Part shown: positions 16,162 to 28,280 of the stretch, piece by piece | Numbering within the stretch: position 1 is the stretch's first letter | Layout of the letters: each line of letters begins with the position of its first letter | Assembly: GCA_004321915.1 (NCBI GenBank) | Contig: SCQE01000085.1 | Span: 1-45,075 of the forward strand | DNA length: 45,075 nt | Direction: 5' to 3' | From: Nitrospirota bacterium | GTDB lineage: Bacteria; Nitrospirota; Thermodesulfovibrionia; Thermodesulfovibrionales; Dissulfurispiraceae | Translations under genes and position numbers: made by a program | Notes under the pieces: model-generated | The model's input: the letters and a program-made list of their open reading frames with translations, nothing else | What the model was told of the DNA's origin: nothing | Databases searched by the model: none

Positions 16162-17727
16162 TTATCTGTCCAGCACTTCCCTTACTTTGAGGAGGAGTTC
16201 CTGCGGCGGGACCGGTTTAGGCACGAAGGTGATGCCTTCTTCAAGGATGCCTTTTTTGCTTATTATCTCCGACGTATAACCGCTTGTGAATATCGCTTTG
16301 ACCTTTGGGAGCAGCTCTTTCATGTCCAGATAAGCTTCTTTGCCGTTTTTGCGCGGCATTATCACATCCAGTATGACGAGCGCGATATTTTCTATGTTCG
16401 ACCTGAATTTTTCGACCGCATCGATGCCGTCCTCGGCCTCGATAATCGTGTAACCGAATTCCCTAAGTATGTCGCTGTTTATTTTTCTGACCTCGGAATC
16501 GTCTTCGGCTATAAGTATTGTTTCTGTGCCGCCTTTGATCTCATTGGACTTTCTGACCGCAGTCGATTCCCTCCCGTAAGCCGAAACCGGGAGATATATC
16601 TTGAAGGTGGTGCCTATGCCCGACTCGCTGTAAACAGTGATAAATCCGTTGTGCTGTTTTATTATGCCGTAAGCCATTGCCAAGCCGAGGCCCGTGCCCT
16701 TGCCGACCTCTTTTGTCGTAAAGAAAGGTTCGAATATCCTGTCGGAGATGCTTTTGTCCATGCCTGTTCCTGTGTCCGATACCGATATGACCGCGTAGTT
16801 TCCTATCTGCCCGTACTCATGCGCTGCCAAGAACCTTTCATCGAGTTCTATGCCCCATGTCCTGATGCTCAAAACACCGCCGTCGGGCATTGCGTCGCGG
16901 GCATTCGAAGCAAGGTTCATCAGCACCTGTTCTATCTGTCCCGAGTCCGCAACCACGGTCAGTTTTTTGTCCGCAAGAACGGTATCAAGCTCTATATCTT
17001 CGCCTATCAGTCTTGTGAGGAGCTTCTCGACCTTTCTGACGATATCGCTTACATCTATGAGTTGGGGATCGATGATCTGTTTTCTGCTGAAGGCCAGAAG
17101 TCCGCTTGTAAGGTTCGCTCCGCGTTCCGCGGCCGTTATGATGCTGTCGACGTGTCCTTTCAGCGGGTTCTCAGCGCCCATTTTAAGCTGCAGTATATGG
17201 CCGTAACCCATTATTGCCGTCAGTATATTGTTGAAGTCGTGGGCTATGCCTCCTGCGAGCGTCCCGACCGCCTCCATCTTCTGTGCCTGCCTTAGCTGGT
17301 CCTCGAGTTTTTTTCTTCCGGTCACGTTGTTGATCAATTCCACTACGAGCAATACATTGCCTGAGGGGTCTTTCAGCGGAAAGGACTTTATTTCTATATA
17401 TACCGGGTTTCCGTTTTTATCGGTGTGAACATGGAAGGAGGCATGCGGCTTTCCTGTGTCGAAAGAGAATTTTACCGAACATTCTTCATTTATCGAATAG
17501 CAGGGTTTGTTCAGCTTATGAGAGACCCTAAAGCAGTTTTGGCCTACTACCGAGCTTTCGTCCAGCCCTAAATGCTCGCAGTAGGCTTTATTGGAAAGTA
17601 TGATCTTGAAATCGCGGTCGACGACAATGAAGCCCTCCTCAACGAGATCTATTATGCCTTTGAGTATCGATACTGCGTTTTCAGGCTCTTTAAAAACCGC
17701 TAAGATTTTATCTGCATTGTCTATCAT
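16162..17727 (-). CDS. Soluble PAS-containing hybrid histidine kinase with receiver domain
   Basis: This gene encodes 521 residues and has no membrane segment. A PAS domain occupies about 20-130. The dimerisation helix follows with the phospho-acceptor His in LAGGIAHDFNNILTAIMGYG (about 158-177). The ATPase domain then has its N box (LMNLASNARDAMPDGG) and G boxes (VSDTGTGMD, GKGTGLGLAMAYGI). A C-terminal receiver (about 400-521) carries the acidic pair EDDSE, the phospho-Asp in LVILDVIMPRKNG and the Lys in FVPKPV. It lies 59 bases after hgcB on the same strand and may be read with the hgc transcript or from its own AT-rich -10. The signal sensed is unknown. Confidence 0.93.
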   Translation of the reverse strand: MIDNADKILAVFKEPENAVSILKGIIDLVEEGFIVVDRDFKIILSNKAYCEHLGLDESSVVGQNCFRVSHKLNKPCYSINEECSVKFSFDTGKPHASFHVHTDKNGNPVYIEIKSFPLKDPSGNVLLVVELINNVTGRKKLEDQLRQAQKMEAVGTLAGGIAHDFNNILTAIMGYGHILQLKMGAENPLKGHVDSIITAAERGANLTSGLLAFSRKQIIDPQLIDVSDIVRKVEKLLTRLIGEDIELDTVLADKKLTVVADSGQIEQVLMNLASNARDAMPDGGVLSIRTWGIELDERFLAAHEYGQIGNYAVISVSDTGTGMDKSISDRIFEPFFTTKEVGKGTGLGLAMAYGIIKQHNGFITVYSESGIGTTFKIYLPVSAYGRESTAVRKSNEIKGGTETILIAEDDSEVRKINSDILREFGYTIIEAEDGIDAVEKFRSNIENIALVILDVIMPRKNGKEAYLDMKELLPKVKAIFTSGYTSEIISKKGILEEGITFVPKPVPPQELLLKVREVLDR

Positions 17728-17786: not shown

Positions 17787-18089
17787 TCAGCAGCAGGCCG
17801 TTGTTTTTCCCGACTGGGAAGAGCTGCAGTCGCAGGACGGTTCTCCACCGTAGAGCATGCTGTTTATCAGGGCCGCCGCGCAGCCTACGCCCCTGTCGAC
17901 CGTTATGGCGCCGAACGGGCAGTTGGTCTCGCAGGCCCCGCATTCCATGCATTTGTCGAGGTCTGTTATGGACGCTTTTTTGTCGCGGACGGACAAAACC
18001 GCATGGGGGCAGACCTCTGTGCAGTTTCCGCACCCCGTGCATTTCTCACGGTCCAGCATAAGGGTCGCAACATTCGAAAGATATTTCAT
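17787..18089 (-). CDS. hgcB: Mercury methylation ferredoxin HgcB
   Basis: This is a 100-residue ferredoxin. The first 4Fe-4S motif is CTGCGNCTEVCP (Cys17, 20, 23, 27). The second is CMECGACETNCP (Cys47, 50, 53, 57); the CMECGAC form is characteristic of HgcB. Cys70 in GVGCAAAL corresponds to the additional conserved cysteine of HgcB, and the protein ends in a vicinal Cys99-Cys100 pair, the proposed mercury handling site. HgcB supplies electrons to reduce the HgcA corrinoid to Co(I). The ATG at 18089 overlaps the hgcA stop (ATGA) with GGGGG upstream; an ATG four codons earlier lacks such a site. Together with hgcA this is near-certain. Confidence 0.96.
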   Translation of the reverse strand: MKYLSNVATLMLDREKCTGCGNCTEVCPHAVLSVRDKKASITDLDKCMECGACETNCPFGAITVDRGVGCAAALINSMLYGGEPSCDCSSSQSGKTTACC

Positions 18090-19195
18090 AGAAGCCCCCA
18101 TTCGACAAGCTTGTATACGGACATAATTATAAGGGAGACAGCGATAGAGGTAATGTAAAGGGGTATTCCGTATTTGAGTTCTTTTTTTACTCCGCTCATT
18201 CCGGTAAAAGTGGTCGAGCCTGTGAACTGGAGGGCTATATACGAGCTTGCGGACGGAAAGAAAATATACGATATCAAAGTCAGCGGAAGCGGTGAAACAA
18301 GAGAAGGGGCAACCAGTTTGTGATACGCGAAGACGGTCAAAAGACCTGTTGCCCAGCCTTTTAACGCAAAGGAGCGGAAGGGTATTGCGGGCAGCAGCAG
18401 CGGGGTGACAAAGGCCCCCGATAGAACGGCCGAAAGCCCTAGGATAAGGAAAGGTGCCCCGCCGTAAAAAGCGTCGCCGAACATTATGCCTGAAGGCTGC
18501 AGCCCGAAAGCGAACAATACTATCAGCGCGAAAAGGGGATAGTTTTTCATTGCGGGAATTATCTCCATAGGCGTGAGTATAAGTCTGTCTTTTATAGTGA
18601 ATTTTACCGTTCTCATATCGGGCGACGCCTTACGGCCGGCTGCGAGATATGCCGGAAGGTCTTTAGCGTAAACCGGTCCGTAATGCACTTTGAAACCTGT
18701 ATTTTTCGAGACCTGATGGGCGCTTATGCCCGGCGCCCCCAACTGAGGCAGGACAAGCCTCCGGTGTTCCACTATCGACGCAAGTCTGCAATCCGAAATC
18801 TTCTTTATCAGTTCTACGGTGCCGAAAGCGCCTTTGCCTGCCGCGCACCAGACATTTATGCCTTTTGTATCGAGCGCAAGTATCCAGCCGTCAAGACCGT
18901 GAAGCGCCTGTCTCAGGAGGTCGAAGCTGTATTTGTAGTTAGCGCTTACGAACACTTCGGAATTCCCGTCAGGAGAACCTACCGCGTAAACGCCCGGTTC
19001 TATGGTAAAGTTGTCCCTGTATCCGCTTACGCGGCATCTGAAATGCTCCCGATAATCCCGGTAAGAGAGGACGGTCGATGCTTTATAAACAGGTCCCGCA
19101 GGTGTTGCGACCGTCCCTTCGATCCATTTCGGTGCGGGTTTTTCCGGTTTTAATGGTCCAACCGGGTCTTTGAATTTCAGAGGTATTGCGGTCAT
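18086..19195 (-). CDS. hgcA: Mercury methylation corrinoid protein HgcA
   Basis: This protein has 369 residues. The cytosolic corrinoid-binding domain (about 25-190) contains the diagnostic cap-helix motif NVWCAAGK at 114-121, with Cys117 as the proposed lower cobalt ligand. The C-terminal part (about 218-369) is a five-helix membrane domain that includes the conserved FTGSTTFTGMSGVKKE stretch. This layout separates HgcA from the related CFeSP large subunit of the acetyl-CoA pathway, which has no membrane domain. HgcA transfers a methyl group from its cobalamin to Hg(II). The gene starts 15 bases after the stop of a sigma-54 response regulator and overlaps hgcB by an ATGA. No cobalamin riboswitch is seen. 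Full length with no missing key residue. Confidence 0.98.
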   Translation of the reverse strand: MTAIPLKFKDPVGPLKPEKPAPKWIEGTVATPAGPVYKASTVLSYRDYREHFRCRVSGYRDNFTIEPGVYAVGSPDGNSEVFVSANYKYSFDLLRQALHGLDGWILALDTKGINVWCAAGKGAFGTVELIKKISDCRLASIVEHRRLVLPQLGAPGISAHQVSKNTGFKVHYGPVYAKDLPAYLAAGRKASPDMRTVKFTIKDRLILTPMEIIPAMKNYPLFALIVLFAFGLQPSGIMFGDAFYGGAPFLILGLSAVLSGAFVTPLLLPAIPFRSFALKGWATGLLTVFAYHKLVAPSLVSPLPLTLISYIFFPSASSYIALQFTGSTTFTGMSGVKKELKYGIPLYITSIAVSLIIMSVYKLVEWGLL

Positions 19196-19210: not shown

Positions 19211-20644
19211 TTAAAGGCTATGGGCGCCGTTTTGCGATGATTGTTTCTTGCGGCTCAGCCTTTTGTTCAATGCCTGACGCGTTATTCCTAGCAGCGAGGC
19301 CGCTATTCCCTGATTGCCGTCAGCCAGTTTCAGCGCTTCGTTAATCAGTATTTCCTCTGCTTCGTCAAGGGTGGGAAACGGCTTTGAGATGTCGATGTTC
19401 AGACGCTCCGATACGTTTGATACGGAGGCCACGGGATCATCGCTCCGGACATCATCGCCTATGATACTTTTAAAACTATCCAACGAAAGTATGCCTGAAC
19501 GGTGGCGGGCGACCGCGTCGTAAACCATTCCCTGCAACTCCCGCAGATTACCGGGAAAACTATAGTTGCTCAGCAGCGTGTATAGCTGCGGCGGCGCTGT
19601 AGGTTTTTTTACGCGCAAGGCCTGCGATGCCTCGTTCATGAAGTGGTCCGTAAGAAGCGGGATGTCGTCGCTTCTTTCGCGCAGGGGCGGAATGTGTATG
19701 TGGTGCGTTCTCAGCCTGAAGAAGAGGTCTTTTCTGAACTTTTTTGCCTCCATAAGGTTTTTAATGTCCTGATTGGTTGCGACTATGACGCGTGCGTTGC
19801 TTTGTTTCGGGACATCGGAACCCAGCGGGTAGTAGGTGTGTTCCTGCAGAAGCCTTAACAGTTTGACCTGCGAAGATTCCTGCATGTCGCCTATCTCATC
19901 CAGAAAAAGGCTGCCGTTTTCTGCCTGCGACACGAGCCCTTCGCGTGCTGTTTCGGCGCCGGTGAAGGCGCCTTTTTTATGTCCGAACAGGGTGTCAGAA
20001 AACATGTTGTCGTCCAGCCCTGCGATATTTACCGCAACGAACTCTCCGCTCAGCCCGCACAGCGTGTGTATGGCTTGTGCCAGCAGTTCTTTGCCGACTC
20101 CGGTCTCGCCTGTAATCAAGACCGGCTGCGGGGATATCGCTATCGCCTCCGCATATGAAAATATAGCCAGCATCCTGCTGTTCTTGGTTATTATCGAAGA
20201 GAAGGCGGACGGGTTCTGTATTTTTCCGTCGAGGATATGGCGCTTGAGCAGGGACACTTCTTTTTGGAGAAGGAAGTTTTCGAACGCTTTTTTCACTGTG
20301 GCCGAGAACTTGTTTTTTTCGAGAGGTTTGACGATGTAATCGAACGCCCCGTTTTTCATGCATTCTACGGCGGTCTCTATCTCGTTGTTTGCGGTCATGA
20401 TGATGACCGGTATTTCAGGATATTCGCCTGCAATTTCCTTAAGCAGTTCGCCCCCTGTTATTCCGGGCATCGAAAGGTCGAGGACGACCACGGCGATCTC
20501 TTTTTCGGCAAGTATGGGCATCACTTCAAGCCCGTTTTGCACGGTATGGATGGTCCGTATTTTTTCTGCTTGGAGAACTATCTTCTCGCCGTATAATATT
20601 TCGGGTTCGTCGTCGACGAGAAGCACCGCAAGGTCCTGCGTCAT
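19211..20644 (-). CDS. Sigma-54-dependent response regulator (NtrC family)
   Basis: This is a 477-residue activator in three parts. The receiver domain (about 5-120) has the acidic pair in VDDEPE and the phospho-Asp at 56 in VVLDLSMPG. The AAA+ domain (about 150-385) has Walker A GETGVGKE, the sigma-54 contact loop GAFTGA and Walker B LFLDEIGDM. The Fis-type DNA-binding helices lie at the end (GNQGIAASLLGITRQALNKRL). It should open sigma-54 promoters when phosphorylated. Its start overlaps the stop of the adjacent histidine kinase (ATGA), so that kinase is its likely partner. hgcA follows after 15 bases. Its target promoters are not visible in the short gaps of this operon. Confidence 0.95.
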   Translation of the reverse strand: MTQDLAVLLVDDEPEILYGEKIVLQAEKIRTIHTVQNGLEVMPILAEKEIAVVVLDLSMPGITGGELLKEIAGEYPEIPVIIMTANNEIETAVECMKNGAFDYIVKPLEKNKFSATVKKAFENFLLQKEVSLLKRHILDGKIQNPSAFSSIITKNSRMLAIFSYAEAIAISPQPVLITGETGVGKELLAQAIHTLCGLSGEFVAVNIAGLDDNMFSDTLFGHKKGAFTGAETAREGLVSQAENGSLFLDEIGDMQESSQVKLLRLLQEHTYYPLGSDVPKQSNARVIVATNQDIKNLMEAKKFRKDLFFRLRTHHIHIPPLRERSDDIPLLTDHFMNEASQALRVKKPTAPPQLYTLLSNYSFPGNLRELQGMVYDAVARHRSGILSLDSFKSIIGDDVRSDDPVASVSNVSERLNIDISKPFPTLDEAEEILINEALKLADGNQGIAASLLGITRQALNKRLSRKKQSSQNGAHSL

Positions 20645-23600
20645 TCCTTCACCTCTTTCCGGTCCGGTATTCGAACGGGCAGCGTTACCTTGACCGCGGT
20701 CCCTTTACCGGATTCCGATTTAAATTCTATTTTACCATTATGGGTGGTGAGTATTTTTCCTACAAGTGAAAGGCCGAGTCCTGTGCCTTCATGCTTGGTC
20801 GTGAAAAACGGCTTCATTATCTGGCCTAAATGCGCGGACTCTATCCCATAGCCCTCATCGAAGACCTCCAGCAGGGCGGAATCCGACGAGGCATCATAAC
20901 CTGTGCTTACCTTTACGGCCTTATCGCTGTTTTCAAGCGCCTGCAGCGCATTGAGTATCAGATTTATCACGACCTGTTCTATTTGGGTAGGGTTGCCCTT
21001 TAAAATCGGGATGTCAGGGGCAGCCGAAAAAGAAAAACTTTTCGTGAGTTTATTTATTCTCATATTCAGGAGCGATATCGCGTTTTCCGTTACCGTGTTC
21101 AGATCGTATTCTTCGAAGAAGGTCTGCTTGTCCTGAAGAGAAAGCCTTCTCATGTCGCCCACTATATTTTTTATCCTCACCGAGCTTTTGACTATTCCTG
21201 CGATAAGGTTTTCTACGGTTTCGCTGATTGTGCCGGACGGAAGTCCTCCTGCTGAAAAATCCCCGTGGTCTTTGGAATACTCGTGGAGTATCTTTCCTAC
21301 ATCGCCCCATGAGTCACGCAGGATTGACGAATTGAACATTATTACATTGTTCGGGTTGTTGATCTCGTGCGCCACCGCAGCTGCCATTTCTCCGAGGGAC
21401 GCGAGGTGGGCCGTCTCGTGGAGCCTGTTTTTTTCTGTCACATCTCTGGCGATATGGAGCATCTTGATAAACTTTCCTGACTCGTCTTTTATCGGGACTA
21501 TTCTGATATCGAGCATTCTGCCCTGATAATTTCTTGCTTGGAAATCGACGGGCGCTTCGGTTTCAAAGACTTTAGCGGCGTAACACTCTTCGATAGGGCA
21601 GTCCGTTTTATGTACGAGTTCGTGGCAGCGCTTGCCGACGGGGTCTCCTGCCGACATGTCTATATAATTTTCCGTGCTCTTGTTGGCCCACAGGACTTTT
21701 TTATCGAGGGACATAAGCACTATCGAGTCGGGCGTCGAGTTAAGTATTATGTTGAATTCATTGTATAGGACACTTAGTTTTGCCTCGCTCTCTTTCAGCG
21801 TAGTCTCGATCTCCTTTCTCTCGGCGATCTCGTTTTTCAGGCTTTTGTTGATCTTTAAAAGCTCCGAAGTGCGCTGGGCGATTATCTCTTCAAGCCGCTC
21901 GTGGTATTTCCTCAGCTCGTCCTCGGCCCTTTTCTTCTCAGTTATGTCTTCCACAATGCCGAAAAGAAGGACCGGTTTGTCATAGTTGTCTCGGATAGTC
22001 GTGATGACGATATTGGTCAGAAGCACGGCGCCGTTTTTTCTTATGAATCTTTTTTCCATCGAAAAATGAGGCAGGCGTCCTGCCATCAGTTCTTCGTAAT
22101 AGAGCATGTTAAGGCGGTCGTCGTCCGGGTGGCTTATGTCGGACACCGACAGTTCGGACAGTTCGGCGATATCGTATCCCGTCATTTTTTGAAACGCCGT
22201 GTTCGCCTCGATAAATCTTCTGTCGGTGTTTATGATGGTTATGCCTACCGGGGCGTTGTCGAAGACGGCCCTGAACCGTTGCTGGCTTCTTCTCAGCGCC
22301 TCTTCGACGCTTTTGCGCATGGATATGTCCCTGTCGATGCCCAGTATGTAATTCTTGCCGTCGAGGTTTATTATTTTTGCCGAAACTTCTATCGGGAATA
22401 CGGAGCCGTCTTTACGGACATGAGTTATCTCGAAGGTCACGACCTCTCCGGGATTTTCGAACAGTTGTTTGGAGACCTCACGGGCTTTTTCCAGACTTTC
22501 GGGGGCGTTCAGAAAACTTATCGGTTTGCCGATAAGCTCATCCGGCGTGTAACCGTGCATGGAGGAGGCTGCGACATTCGCATCCACTATTGCCGGCTCT
22601 TTCCCTTCGGTGTCGGCGTCGAGCAGAAGTATTGCGTCGGATGCCAGATTGAAAAGCGAATGGAAGCGTTCTTCGCTCGTCCTGAGCGCCTTTTCGACCT
22701 TTATTCTCTCCAGTATCTCCGACTGGAGCAGTCTGTTGGCTTCTTCGAGTTCGGAGGTCCTCTCTTTGATGAGGTCCTCCAAATGGTAGTGATACTTTTC
22801 GATCTCTTTTTCTGCTTCCTTTTTTGCGGTAACATCCACGAATATGCAGACAATGTTCCGTATCCGGCCGTCGGGATCGTATATGGGGGAGAGGGTAGAA
22901 CTGCACGTGCATCTTCTTTCATTGCATCCGGTAAGGGTTGACTCAAAAGAGCGCCGCTTGCCTTCAAGACATTTTTTTATTATGGAGTTTAGATCGCCGC
23001 CGCCTTTTTCGATGGAGCATATGTCCGGAAGCCCTTTCACCGATATGTCCGGCAGGCCGCACTCGAAAAATGAGAGGTAGGCCTTGTTTGCCGTTATGCA
23101 TCTGCTCTCTTCGTCTATCAGGAATATAAAGTTGGGGGAGCCGTCAACAAGGCTCCTGTATAGGCGCTCGGATGAGACCACTTTTGAGCTCGATTCACGT
23201 ATGAGTTGAAGCAGTATAAAGAAAGCGAAGGTGACGCTGAAAAGCACGAGTGTCGCTACGATGGCGAAAAACCTGTATTCTTTTATCAGCATGGTCGGTT
23301 CGAACAGCACCAGAGACCAGTCGGAATCTCTTAATCCCCGGCGTGTTACGAGAAGGTGTCTGCCTTGATAATCTATCTCGTCCCCCGTATGAGGTTCATA
23401 AGGCAGGAGCGCGGTCTTTAATTTGTCAGTGTCCGGCCAAAGGTTCGAGGAAACCAATTCAGGCCTGTTCGAAAGGAATATTGCGCCTTTCCGGTCCACA
23501 AGAAAAGATTCCGGATGATGGTTTGTTGCTTCGGAAAAAAAATCCGCGATGATTTCATTCGACTTCACCACGTTATCGGGCGACTTCTGCAGATGGCTGA

Positions 23601-24432
23601 CTATCGCATCGGCATAGACCGCTGATTCGCGCAGCTCTTCATGTTTTGCGTGCTTTCCGAGGAGTCCTGCGAGGAGCCATCCGCCGATAATGATGGCCAT
23701 AAGCGCGATTAGCGGCACTGTTTTATGCGTGTGTTTGACATGAAAGACATTATCGTCTGTCCTCGAACAGTTTTCGGAATGCATCCATACCGACATCGCA
23801 ATTACTGCTGCCAAGACTGTTTTTATGGTCTGGACCGGGGTTCCGGATATCGAAAAGAAAAGGTCCGCGTTTATTATAGACGCGGGAGGGAAGGGGGCAT
23901 AATGCACAACGGTCCCTGTTAATAAAGCGTGTAGTCCCAAGGCTATGCTTGCCGTCATAAGGCAACGGTCAGGGGCTGCAGGCCCTTTTCTTGCAGCCGC
24001 CCATAATGTCCGGCACGAAAGAAATCCTCCGGAGACCCCCAGCGTATAGCGACCCATAGCGTCTATACCTTCCAGTCCTGCCAGTCCGCCCAGTCCCGTC
24101 AACAAGATAAGAGGAACATATATCCAAACACCGGTCCGTTTGTTTTCCGTATCTGAAATTCCCCTGCGTCCGAACTCAAACAGGAATATGAATGAGAATA
24201 CCGGTATGATGACGTTCAAGTCGTGCGAATGTTTCCTGTCGTCAAATACGATATTAATAAGGTCTCCCCATGCGTGCAGGCCTGAAACAATACCGAACAT
24301 GGCCAGAAATACCCACGGCAGTTTTAATTGGTCTTTTTTTAGTTGAACAAGGCAGGCTGCTCCGAGCATCAGAAGGGAAAGCCCGTAAACAAAGTAGGTG
24401 TAATCCAATTGCGAGATCAAAATGTTCTTCAT
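20641..24432 (-). CDS. Large multi-PAS membrane sensor histidine kinase
   Basis: This gene encodes 1263 residues. The first 225 or so hold about seven hydrophobic helices. A further helix near 240-260 and one near 378-402 enclose a Cache-like extracytoplasmic segment. Four PAS domains follow; the first has a Cys-rich insertion (CNERRCTCSS) and the last has DCPIEECYAAKVFE. A coiled coil with PAS-linker character separates them. The kinase core has its His in LGEMAAAVAHEINNP, the N box LILNALQAL and the G2 box KHEGTGLGLSL, all intact. It shares an ATGA overlap with the sigma-54 regulator gene. It heads the transcription unit that continues into hgcAB. The ligand is unknown; the PAS set suggests a redox or small-molecule signal. 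Confidence 0.93.
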   Translation of the reverse strand: MKNILISQLDYTYFVYGLSLLMLGAACLVQLKKDQLKLPWVFLAMFGIVSGLHAWGDLINIVFDDRKHSHDLNVIIPVFSFIFLFEFGRRGISDTENKRTGVWIYVPLILLTGLGGLAGLEGIDAMGRYTLGVSGGFLSCRTLWAAARKGPAAPDRCLMTASIALGLHALLTGTVVHYAPFPPASIINADLFFSISGTPVQTIKTVLAAVIAMSVWMHSENCSRTDDNVFHVKHTHKTVPLIALMAIIIGGWLLAGLLGKHAKHEELRESAVYADAIVSHLQKSPDNVVKSNEIIADFFSEATNHHPESFLVDRKGAIFLSNRPELVSSNLWPDTDKLKTALLPYEPHTGDEIDYQGRHLLVTRRGLRDSDWSLVLFEPTMLIKEYRFFAIVATLVLFSVTFAFFILLQLIRESSSKVVSSERLYRSLVDGSPNFIFLIDEESRCITANKAYLSFFECGLPDISVKGLPDICSIEKGGGDLNSIIKKCLEGKRRSFESTLTGCNERRCTCSSTLSPIYDPDGRIRNIVCIFVDVTAKKEAEKEIEKYHYHLEDLIKERTSELEEANRLLQSEILERIKVEKALRTSEERFHSLFNLASDAILLLDADTEGKEPAIVDANVAASSMHGYTPDELIGKPISFLNAPESLEKAREVSKQLFENPGEVVTFEITHVRKDGSVFPIEVSAKIINLDGKNYILGIDRDISMRKSVEEALRRSQQRFRAVFDNAPVGITIINTDRRFIEANTAFQKMTGYDIAELSELSVSDISHPDDDRLNMLYYEELMAGRLPHFSMEKRFIRKNGAVLLTNIVITTIRDNYDKPVLLFGIVEDITEKKRAEDELRKYHERLEEIIAQRTSELLKINKSLKNEIAERKEIETTLKESEAKLSVLYNEFNIILNSTPDSIVLMSLDKKVLWANKSTENYIDMSAGDPVGKRCHELVHKTDCPIEECYAAKVFETEAPVDFQARNYQGRMLDIRIVPIKDESGKFIKMLHIARDVTEKNRLHETAHLASLGEMAAAVAHEINNPNNVIMFNSSILRDSWGDVGKILHEYSKDHGDFSAGGLPSGTISETVENLIAGIVKSSVRIKNIVGDMRRLSLQDKQTFFEEYDLNTVTENAISLLNMRINKLTKSFSFSAAPDIPILKGNPTQIEQVVINLILNALQALENSDKAVKVSTGYDASSDSALLEVFDEGYGIESAHLGQIMKPFFTTKHEGTGLGLSLVGKILTTHNGKIEFKSESGKGTAVKVTLPVRIPDRKEVKE

Positions 24433-25395: not shown

Positions 25396-26037
25396 TTAAA
25401 ACGCAAAGTTCCCGACTACCGTTACATAAAACCCGAAAGCTATAAGTATTCCTCCCATAACATATCTAAGCGCTCCGCTTCCGGAAAGCAAACTGAGTTT
25501 CTTTTGGACAAAACTGGAGGAGTAGGCGATAACAAGCATCGGTACGGCAAGGCCCAGAGAATAAATTCCGAGAAGCAGAACGCCCGTTACGAGCTGGCCG
25601 CTTGTTCCGACCATCACCAGAATGCCCGACAGCATGGGGCCTACGCAGGGGATCCATACGACCCCCAGAGCCATTCCCAGTATAAGGCCTCCCAGTCTTC
25701 CTTCGGAATTCACCTGAATATTCGAAAGCCGGTAGAGCTTCTTAAAAATACTTATATCGAAAAAGACCACGGCCCCCAAGCACATTATCACAATTCCACC
25801 GGCCTGCTCTATATAACGCGTCTTCCCTATGAGCATCGAACCGAACAAAGACGATATTGCACCCATGGCCATAAAGGTCAGTGAGAGTCCGAAAACCACT
25901 ATAAGGGGCCTCAAACGGTCTTTATACTCCGCGCCGGCTACGATCACCGGAATTACAGGCAGCACGCACGGCGAAAGCACGCTTGCAAGCCCTGCCCCGA
26001 ACGCAAGGGCCATATTTGTAATCCCGAGTTCCATCAT
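25396..26037 (-). CDS. ccdA: CcdA-type thiol-disulfide transmembrane protein
   Basis: This is a 213-residue membrane protein with six hydrophobic helices. It has the two conserved cysteine sites of the CcdA/DsbD-beta family: LSPCVLPVIPV near residue 25 and WIPCVGPMLSGIL near 125. CcdA carries reducing equivalents from cytoplasmic thioredoxin to periplasmic thioredoxin-like partners, for example in cytochrome c maturation. Its first ATG overlaps the stop of an exported thioredoxin-fold gene (ATGATG), so that protein is the likely partner. This fits an organism with periplasmic c-type cytochromes, such as the haem sensor at 13995. Confidence 0.92.
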   Translation of the reverse strand: MMELGITNMALAFGAGLASVLSPCVLPVIPVIVAGAEYKDRLRPLIVVFGLSLTFMAMGAISSLFGSMLIGKTRYIEQAGGIVIMCLGAVVFFDISIFKKLYRLSNIQVNSEGRLGGLILGMALGVVWIPCVGPMLSGILVMVGTSGQLVTGVLLLGIYSLGLAVPMLVIAYSSSFVQKKLSLLSGSGALRYVMGGILIAFGFYVTVVGNFAF

Positions 26038-26438
26038 TTTATGCTGTCAAGCACATGCGCCAGTGTTTCATAACTTTGCACACCCGGTGGAAAGACCCTG
26101 CCTATGTTGCCCCTGCTGTCTACGATGACTATTGAAGGCAGCCCCCTCACCCCGTAGTCGTAGAAAACTTTCTGGTCTGAGGGCCTTGTGGCGTCGATAT
26201 TTACGATATTGAACTTCTTTGCCCTGTCGGCATGCAGTTTTTGCAGAACATCGTTCTGGGCCCTGCAGGGAGCGCCCATAGGATTCAAAAAGAATATTAC
26301 CGTTTTTTTGCCGGAAGCGAAGGCTTGTTTTAGCTCCTGATTGCTTTTAGGGGCTGCCGTATCTCCGGCAACCGACGGTGCCGCTAACGCCAAGACAGCC
26401 GTGAAGATGAATAATGACAACAGCTCTCTGATTTTCAT
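26034..26438 (-). CDS. Exported thioredoxin-fold protein with a single cysteine
   Basis: This gene encodes 134 residues with a signal peptide (hydrophobic 7-24, cut near SVAG). The thioredoxin fold is recognisable from VIFFLNPMGAPCRAQ and from the cis-proline loop GLPSIVIVDSRG (Pro101). At the active site the usual CxxC is GAPC: only the second cysteine, Cys58, remains, and no other cysteine exists in the protein. A simple two-cysteine disulfide exchange is therefore impossible. It could work through a mixed disulfide with CcdA or a cytochrome apoprotein. It overlaps the diguanylate cyclase stop (TAATG) and the ccdA start, so the three genes form one operon. Confidence 0.85.
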   Translation of the reverse strand: MKIRELLSLFIFTAVLALAAPSVAGDTAAPKSNQELKQAFASGKKTVIFFLNPMGAPCRAQNDVLQKLHADRAKKFNIVNIDATRPSDQKVFYDYGVRGLPSIVIVDSRGNIGRVFPPGVQSYETLAHVLDSIK

Positions 26439-27642: not shown

Positions 27643-27966
27643 TCAAAATTTTGTTATACCCGCCTTGTTTTTGTTATGGCGTCTAGTAATGTCCAGTATA
27701 GCTTCAGGATGTTTCGCGGCAACCTTTAACAGTATACGCGAGGGGCCTTCAGGTTTGCGTCTCCCCTGCTCCCAGTTCCGAAGCGTAGCCACGCTTATTC
27801 CCATAAGCGACGCAAACTTGTCCTGAGATAAGCCGTATTGTTCACGTATTTTCCGCACCGCAGCCTCTGGAAACTTAGTGCTACGAGAGGGTTTCATCTT
27901 GCCTTTAACGATAGCAGCGCCCTGTTTAACACTTTCAAGCAACTCTTCAAACAGTTCCTTTTTCAT
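27643..27966 (-). CDS. Antitoxin, HigA/XRE-type helix-turn-helix protein
   Basis: This gene encodes 107 residues. The central helix-turn-helix is clear: IREQYGLSQDKFASLMGISVATLRNWEQGRRKP at about 40-72, a classic Xre/Cro type. The N-terminal 30 residues are charged and probably bind the toxin. It belongs to the HigA/NadS-like antitoxins whose genes follow their toxin. Its ATG overlaps the toxin stop (ATGA), so the two are translated together. It likely represses the shared promoter and neutralises the toxin. Confidence 0.9.
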   Translation of the reverse strand: MKKELFEELLESVKQGAAIVKGKMKPSRSTKFPEAAVRKIREQYGLSQDKFASLMGISVATLRNWEQGRRKPEGPSRILLKVAAKHPEAILDITRRHNKNKAGITKF

Positions 27967-28280
27967 AGGTACTCCTTTTCTATAATCTTTTTCAACTGCC
28001 TGAGCTGGTCTGTTGTCAAGTCAGCCTGCTCGTTTTTCGGGTAAGCAAAAAGTAACAGTATAGAGTCTTTGGATGCGAACCAATAATAAATAAACCTACT
28101 ACCGCCTCTCTTTCCATGCCCACCGGCAGACCACCGGAGTTTTCTGAGCCCGCCGCTTCCCGGTATTATTTTCCCGGCATCCGGCCTATTGACCAAATGA
28201 GTCTGCAAAAGCCGATAGTCTTCGTCAGATATCAATTCCTTGATTAGTTTTGTAAATATCGGGGTCTCAATAATAACCAT
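27963..28280 (-). CDS. Toxin, HigB/RelE-like ribonuclease family
   Basis: This is a 105-residue basic protein of the RelE superfamily, HigB/RelE branch. Telling stretches are DYRLLQTHLVNRPDAGKIIPGSGGLRKLRWS and GGSRFIYYWFASKDSILLLFAYPKNEQADLT. Such toxins cut mRNA on the ribosome. The order toxin then antitoxin, with a 4-base overlap, is the HigBA order. A strong promoter stands directly ahead, and the ATG is only 5 bases past its -10, so the mRNA would be leaderless. The pair lies between two copies of the ligase 3' end, which suggests horizontal insertion. Confidence 0.9.
   Translation of the reverse strand: MVIIETPIFTKLIKELISDEDYRLLQTHLVNRPDAGKIIPGSGGLRKLRWSAGGHGKRGGSRFIYYWFASKDSILLLFAYPKNEQADLTTDQLRQLKKIIEKEYL

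Follow-up and report, generated by a model that had tools for sequence, protein, structure and literature searches.

A predicted mercury-methylation gene pair, hgcAB, adjoining a two-component system in an uncultured Nitrospirota bacterium of the family Dissulfurispiraceae

The gene pair hgcA-hgcB is the recognised marker for conversion of inorganic mercury to toxic methylmercury. A close described counterpart of the locus studied here is HgcAB of Pseudodesulfovibrio mercurii ND132. In that organism, the cobalamin on HgcA is methylated by SAM and its cobalt is ligated by a cysteine of the cap helix; electrons come from HgcB, whose cysteines also deal with Hg(II) and the product (PMC11588087, PMC7305189). 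Mutagenesis of the cap-helix residue Cys93, the counterpart of Cys117 in the protein studied here, and the role of HgcB Cys73 have both been described (PMC7305189). The pair has already been published for Nitrospirota (PMC7438021, PMC11588087). As to its regulation, an ArsR-like regulator is reported for Desulfovibrio/Pseudodesulfovibrio loci; ArsR, GntR and MarR types are reported for bacteria, and a PrlF/MazE gene beside hgcA mainly for archaea (PMC10349881).

We analysed a stretch of 45,075 nucleotides (hereafter the window; contig SCQE01000085.1) from an uncultured Nitrospirota bacterium of the family Dissulfurispiraceae, whose genome has a completeness of 99.6% and a contamination of 1.65%. 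Five genes follow one another on its minus strand: a 1263-aa kinase, an NtrC-type regulator, hgcA, hgcB and a 521-aa hybrid kinase (Table 1). The original prediction had called hgcA and hgcB a complete pair, and scores against curated profiles, the diagnostic residues, the predicted fold, the tree, the pairing of the two genes and their conservation in a genus-mate (MYbin3) all agreed with this.

Table 1 Features of the hgcAB locus and its neighbourhood (positions in the window).
Feature	Position	Strand	Description and basis
hgcA	18086..19195	minus	369 aa; membrane corrinoid methyltransferase HgcA; NCBIfam NF040863, Pfam CdhD C-terminal part, fold, tree
HgcA cap-helix motif NVWCAAGK, residues 114-121	18833..18856	minus	Cys117 is the predicted Co ligand
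hgcB	17787..18101	minus	dicluster [4Fe-4S] ferredoxin HgcB; NCBIfam NF040864 and alignment of 13 HgcB
HgcB Cys70	17880..17882	minus	invariant in the 13-HgcB alignment; counterpart of essential Cys73 of P. mercurii ND132
HgcB terminal Cys99-Cys100	17790..17795	minus	tail also carries C86-x-C88
NtrC-type sigma-54 response regulator	19211..20644	minus	receiver, AAA+ with GAFTGA, Fis HTH; Pfam PF00072, PF00158, PF02954
1263-aa multi-PAS membrane histidine kinase	20641..24432	minus	N-terminal membrane segments, several PAS domains
521-aa PAS hybrid histidine kinase with receiver	16162..17727	minus	Pfam

Both proteins scored above the curated NCBIfam cut-offs for their equivalog families. HgcA reached 384.4 bits against NF040863 (cut-off 275, E = 4e-115), and HgcB reached 124.7 bits against NF040864 (cut-off 99, E = 1e-36). 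Comparison of hgcA with the MYbin3 copy gave dN of ~0.14 and dS >1, which indicates purifying selection; these values, together with the E-values, exclude a chance match. Purifying selection was likewise found for all five genes of the block between the window and MYbin3.

The NVWCAAGK motif of HgcA was found exactly where it had been placed and fits the cap-helix consensus N(V/I)WCA(A/G)GK; N114, V115, W116, C117, A119, G120 and K121 are invariant in an alignment of 33 HgcA sequences. The AlphaFold2 model (mean pLDDT 86) comprises an alpha/beta corrinoid domain, in which a short helix (residues 115-121) carries Cys117, followed by a helical membrane domain. The five membrane helices that had been predicted appear in the model at residues 219-231, 239-266, 276-294, 303-327 and 333-365, consistent with hydropathy and with a full-length match to 9a0b, the published HgcAB model. 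This entry was the best fold match in the PDB (328 columns). The domain layout, the cap-helix cysteine and the five-helix membrane domain are shared with P. mercurii ND132; identity to the 9a0b chain is 37% over the full length.

The cysteines of HgcB also proved to lie at the expected positions. They comprise two CxxCxxCxxxCP motifs, CTGCGNCTEVCP and CMECGACETNCP, then Cys70, C86-x-C88 and the terminal Cys99-Cys100; the conserved cysteine ~12-13 residues past the second CxxCxxCxxxC(P) motif and a C-terminal cysteine are therefore both present. Two start codons are available for hgcB. The first ATG gives a protein of 104 aa (17787-18101) and the second one of 100 aa (17787-18089). The second yields both the Cys70 numbering and the predicted ATGA overlap with hgcA (...CTTCTATGAAATAT...), so that hgcB lies directly 3' of hgcA, and 18089 is likely the true start. 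As in P. mercurii ND132, hgcA is followed by a gene for a dicluster ferredoxin with an additional cysteine and a terminal Cys-Cys, but the tail of the window protein has an added C-x-C. All 13 aligned HgcB sequences have both C86 and C88, whereas the terminal Cys-Cys occurs in some only, and C86/C88 may be the main thiol pair that handles Hg. Nitrospirota HgcB proteins nearly always carry the tail motif PSCDC (C86, C88) but vary in the terminal Cys-Cys.

To place HgcA among related corrinoid proteins, we built a tree of 93 sequences, comprising 44 HgcA from Nitrospirota, 31 HgcA from Desulfobacterota and 18 CFeSP. HgcA of the window paired with that of MYbin3 (100/100) within a Nitrospirota HgcA clade that holds 42 of the 44 Nitrospirota sequences (100/100) and includes nDJH15bin8; its relatives by HgcA are Nitrospirota MAGs. 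It is 76% identical to the MYbin3 protein and 53-63% identical to most other Nitrospirota HgcA compared. The idea that the corrinoid protein is instead a CFeSP (AcsC/CdhE-type, Wood-Ljungdahl) or a CFeSP paralog beside an unrelated ferredoxin could draw on the match of residues 64-179 to Pfam CdhD, on a corrinoid-domain fold shared with CFeSP large subunits (~22% identity over ~125 residues) and on a CFeSP-like gene in the same genome, but its probability is negligible, as HgcA scores only 57 bits against the nearest CFeSP model (acetyl-CoA synthase gamma subunit, cut-off 306), CFeSP large subunits match it in the corrinoid domain only and not in the membrane domain that follows, NVWCAAGK is missing from 18/18 CFeSP sequences, and the tree separates HgcA from CFeSP with 100/100 support. 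CFeSP identity, the grouping that would have spoken against the original prediction, is ruled out by the tree and motif tests. The CFeSP-like paralog was the one further weak match to the HgcA profile in the genome and, at 65 bits, is easily distinguished from the HgcA with which it coexists.

Membership of the HgcAB-like fusion family (NF043039) is also very improbable, as is identity with some other HgcA-like methyltransferase incapable of Hg methylation. HgcA does match NF043039 with 188 bits, but this is well under the cut-off of 285 and about half of the score against the true HgcA model; moreover, the window holds two separate genes, and HgcB passes a cut-off of its own. The remaining two Nitrospirota sequences of the tree (L062 of genome G112 and L064 of genome G320) group with those of Desulfobacterota, which fits transfer in other parts of the phylum but not at the window locus. 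Two genomes, G112 and G336, carry two above-cut-off hgcA copies each, for which transfer or duplication is likely.

Collectively, we are highly confident that the pair is a true HgcAB with predicted capacity for Hg methylation, a judgement that leaves regulation aside, and hgcAB very probably forms an intact, functional operon. All residues known to be required for Hg methylation are intact. By analogy with P. mercurii, the soluble domain of HgcA would bind cobalamin, its Cys117 serving as lower ligand of the Co, and the five-helix domain would anchor the protein in the membrane. The two [4Fe-4S] clusters of HgcB would relay low-potential electrons that keep the cobalt reduced, and Cys70 and the tail cysteines would deliver Hg(II). 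HgcA would be methylated by SAM, as in P. mercurii biochemistry, and the methyl group then passed to Hg(II); the cofactor, the methyl donor and the reaction are all carried over here from other species. The claim that the organism is a mercury methylator holds as a prediction from sequence, with which fold, tree and profiles are consistent; carriage of hgcAB predicts methylation without proving it.

A genuine pair might nevertheless have been selected for another function, with methylmercury as a by-product of a reaction that methylates a metal(loid) or a thiol. Such a role would be compatible with the identity and capacity given above. The native role of HgcAB has been described as unresolved (PMC10349881), and hgcAB has been retained in many lineages, next to differing neighbours. 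A search for MerB in Dissulfurispiraceae returned no match, which would fit, but the positive control gave no match either, so absence of MerB is not established. On the other side, Hg methylation is the demonstrated reaction of HgcAB and every residue needed for it is in place. On balance, we regard a different native function as rather unlikely, and Hg methylation as the predicted activity of the pair.

The pair itself is ordinary for Nitrospirota, where it is already known and common. Among the 396 Nitrospirota genomes sampled, 55 have hgcA above the cut-off. The same holds for HgcA in 12 of 31 Dissulfurispiraceae genomes, and in all 12 an above-cut-off HgcB is adjacent. A search for HgcA on plasmids returned no match. 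The genome of the window also has dsrA above the cut-off, so the organism has dissimilatory sulfur metabolism. The locus adds a well-supported predicted methylmercury producer to Dissulfurispiraceae, a sulfur-cycling family that includes magnetotactic bacteria.

What sets the locus apart is its neighbourhood. The response regulator ends 15 bp before hgcA, and the 1263-aa kinase, likely its cognate sensor, overlaps it by 4 bp; a gap of 59 bp separates hgcB from the hybrid kinase downstream. MYbin3 shares this order of five genes, with 73-84% amino-acid identity (kinase 73%, HgcA 76%, hybrid kinase 83%, response regulator 84%). The N-terminal sensor region of the 1263-aa kinase has only weak matches elsewhere in Dissulfurispiraceae. 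Upstream of hgcA, the regulator was absent from all examined loci except the window and MYbin3, in a survey that took in ~1.4 kb at the majority of loci, as much as 6 kb at named ones and ~500 bp or less at six. Of the 44 Nitrospirota loci, 13 instead have an AbrB/MazE-like gene (PF04014) immediately upstream of hgcA. No relevant paper linking a two-component system or sigma-54 with hgcA or hgcAB was found in the open-access literature searched, and within that literature a two-component regulator beside hgcAB has not been described before. If linked to hgcAB, it would be a further candidate type of regulator in addition to the ArsR-like, PrlF/MazE, GntR and MarR types.

Position and conservation suggest that the kinase and the NtrC-type regulator are probably co-transcribed with hgcAB in this genus and that they may control it. 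More specifically, we tentatively propose, with somewhat less than even confidence, that hgcAB in the genus is under direct sigma-54-dependent control by the multi-PAS kinase and the NtrC-type regulator, which took the place of the AbrB/MazE-like regulator of related Nitrospirota, the same operon being present in magnetotactic MYbin3. If so, an external or redox signal, and not a one-component repressor, would turn the potential for methylation on or off. Scans for the corresponding promoter were negative. In the window, two exact consensus -24/-12 sigma-54 sites were found, both far from the block and at chance level, and a stricter sigma-54 pattern gave none; scans for sigma-70 promoters and terminators were also at chance level. 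The absence of a nearby sigma-54 promoter counts against the simplest form of regulation of hgcAB by this regulator, and in favour of a kinase and response regulator that only happen to lie next to hgcAB and have other targets. The latter also agrees with the abundance of two-component genes and with the finding that no examined Nitrospirota locus other than MYbin3 has the pair. However, mere adjacency, which concerns regulation only and which we hold to be a serious contender just short of probable, has to account for the 15-bp spacing on the same strand, for the order kept in MYbin3 and for a regulator that fills the slot occupied by the AbrB/MazE-like regulator in 13 other Nitrospirota loci.

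Several further features were observed around these loci. The PF04014 genes were found at L006/L041, L044, L063, L065, L068, L069, L073 and L079-L084, and also in at least two Desulfobacterota (L090, L091). In another Nitrospirota MAG, a RuBisCO-large-like protein and a cupin are encoded directly upstream of hgcA (L036 344-1896); a similarly sized gene pair lies upstream of hgcA at L037, and CopC/CopD-like genes lie upstream at L032 and L033. Within the window, an HTH/MqsA-like antitoxin and RelE-like toxin pair (27643-28280) has no counterpart in the otherwise syntenic MYbin3 contig.

Two of the relatives compared here have been reported to be magnetotactic. MYbin3 was presented as the genome of a magnetotactic Nitrospirota bacterium (PMC5955933), nDJH15bin8 is listed as magnetotactic, and both are assigned to Dissulfurispiraceae (PMC9376291). 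MYbin3 contig C20 (L058 10210-17740) holds a magnetosome cluster encoding a PDZ-magnetochrome protein, two cation-diffusion facilitators, a TPR protein and a trypsin-like protease with CxxCH motifs; the magnetochrome domain was identified by Pfam and the other gene names were assigned from sequence. MYbin3 carries hgcAB at L055 4305-5713, and nDJH15bin8 (L041) has the pair as well. A magnetotactic bacterium, MYbin3, thus carries hgcAB, for which no report in magnetotactic bacteria was found in the open-access literature searched. In the window genome, no magnetochrome match was obtained and a MamQ query retrieved a LemA-like gene only, as it did in another family member. As both markers tested are missing there, we confine magnetotaxis to the relatives and do not claim it for the window organism. 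A gene of MYbin3 that is flanked by panC and a GGDEF gene, at a distance of 6 kb from hgcAB (L055:11926-12465), encodes a 179-aa protein with a single magnetochrome domain (PF18509). The same slot in the window (25396-26438) is occupied by a CcdA/DsbD-like gene and a thioredoxin-like gene.
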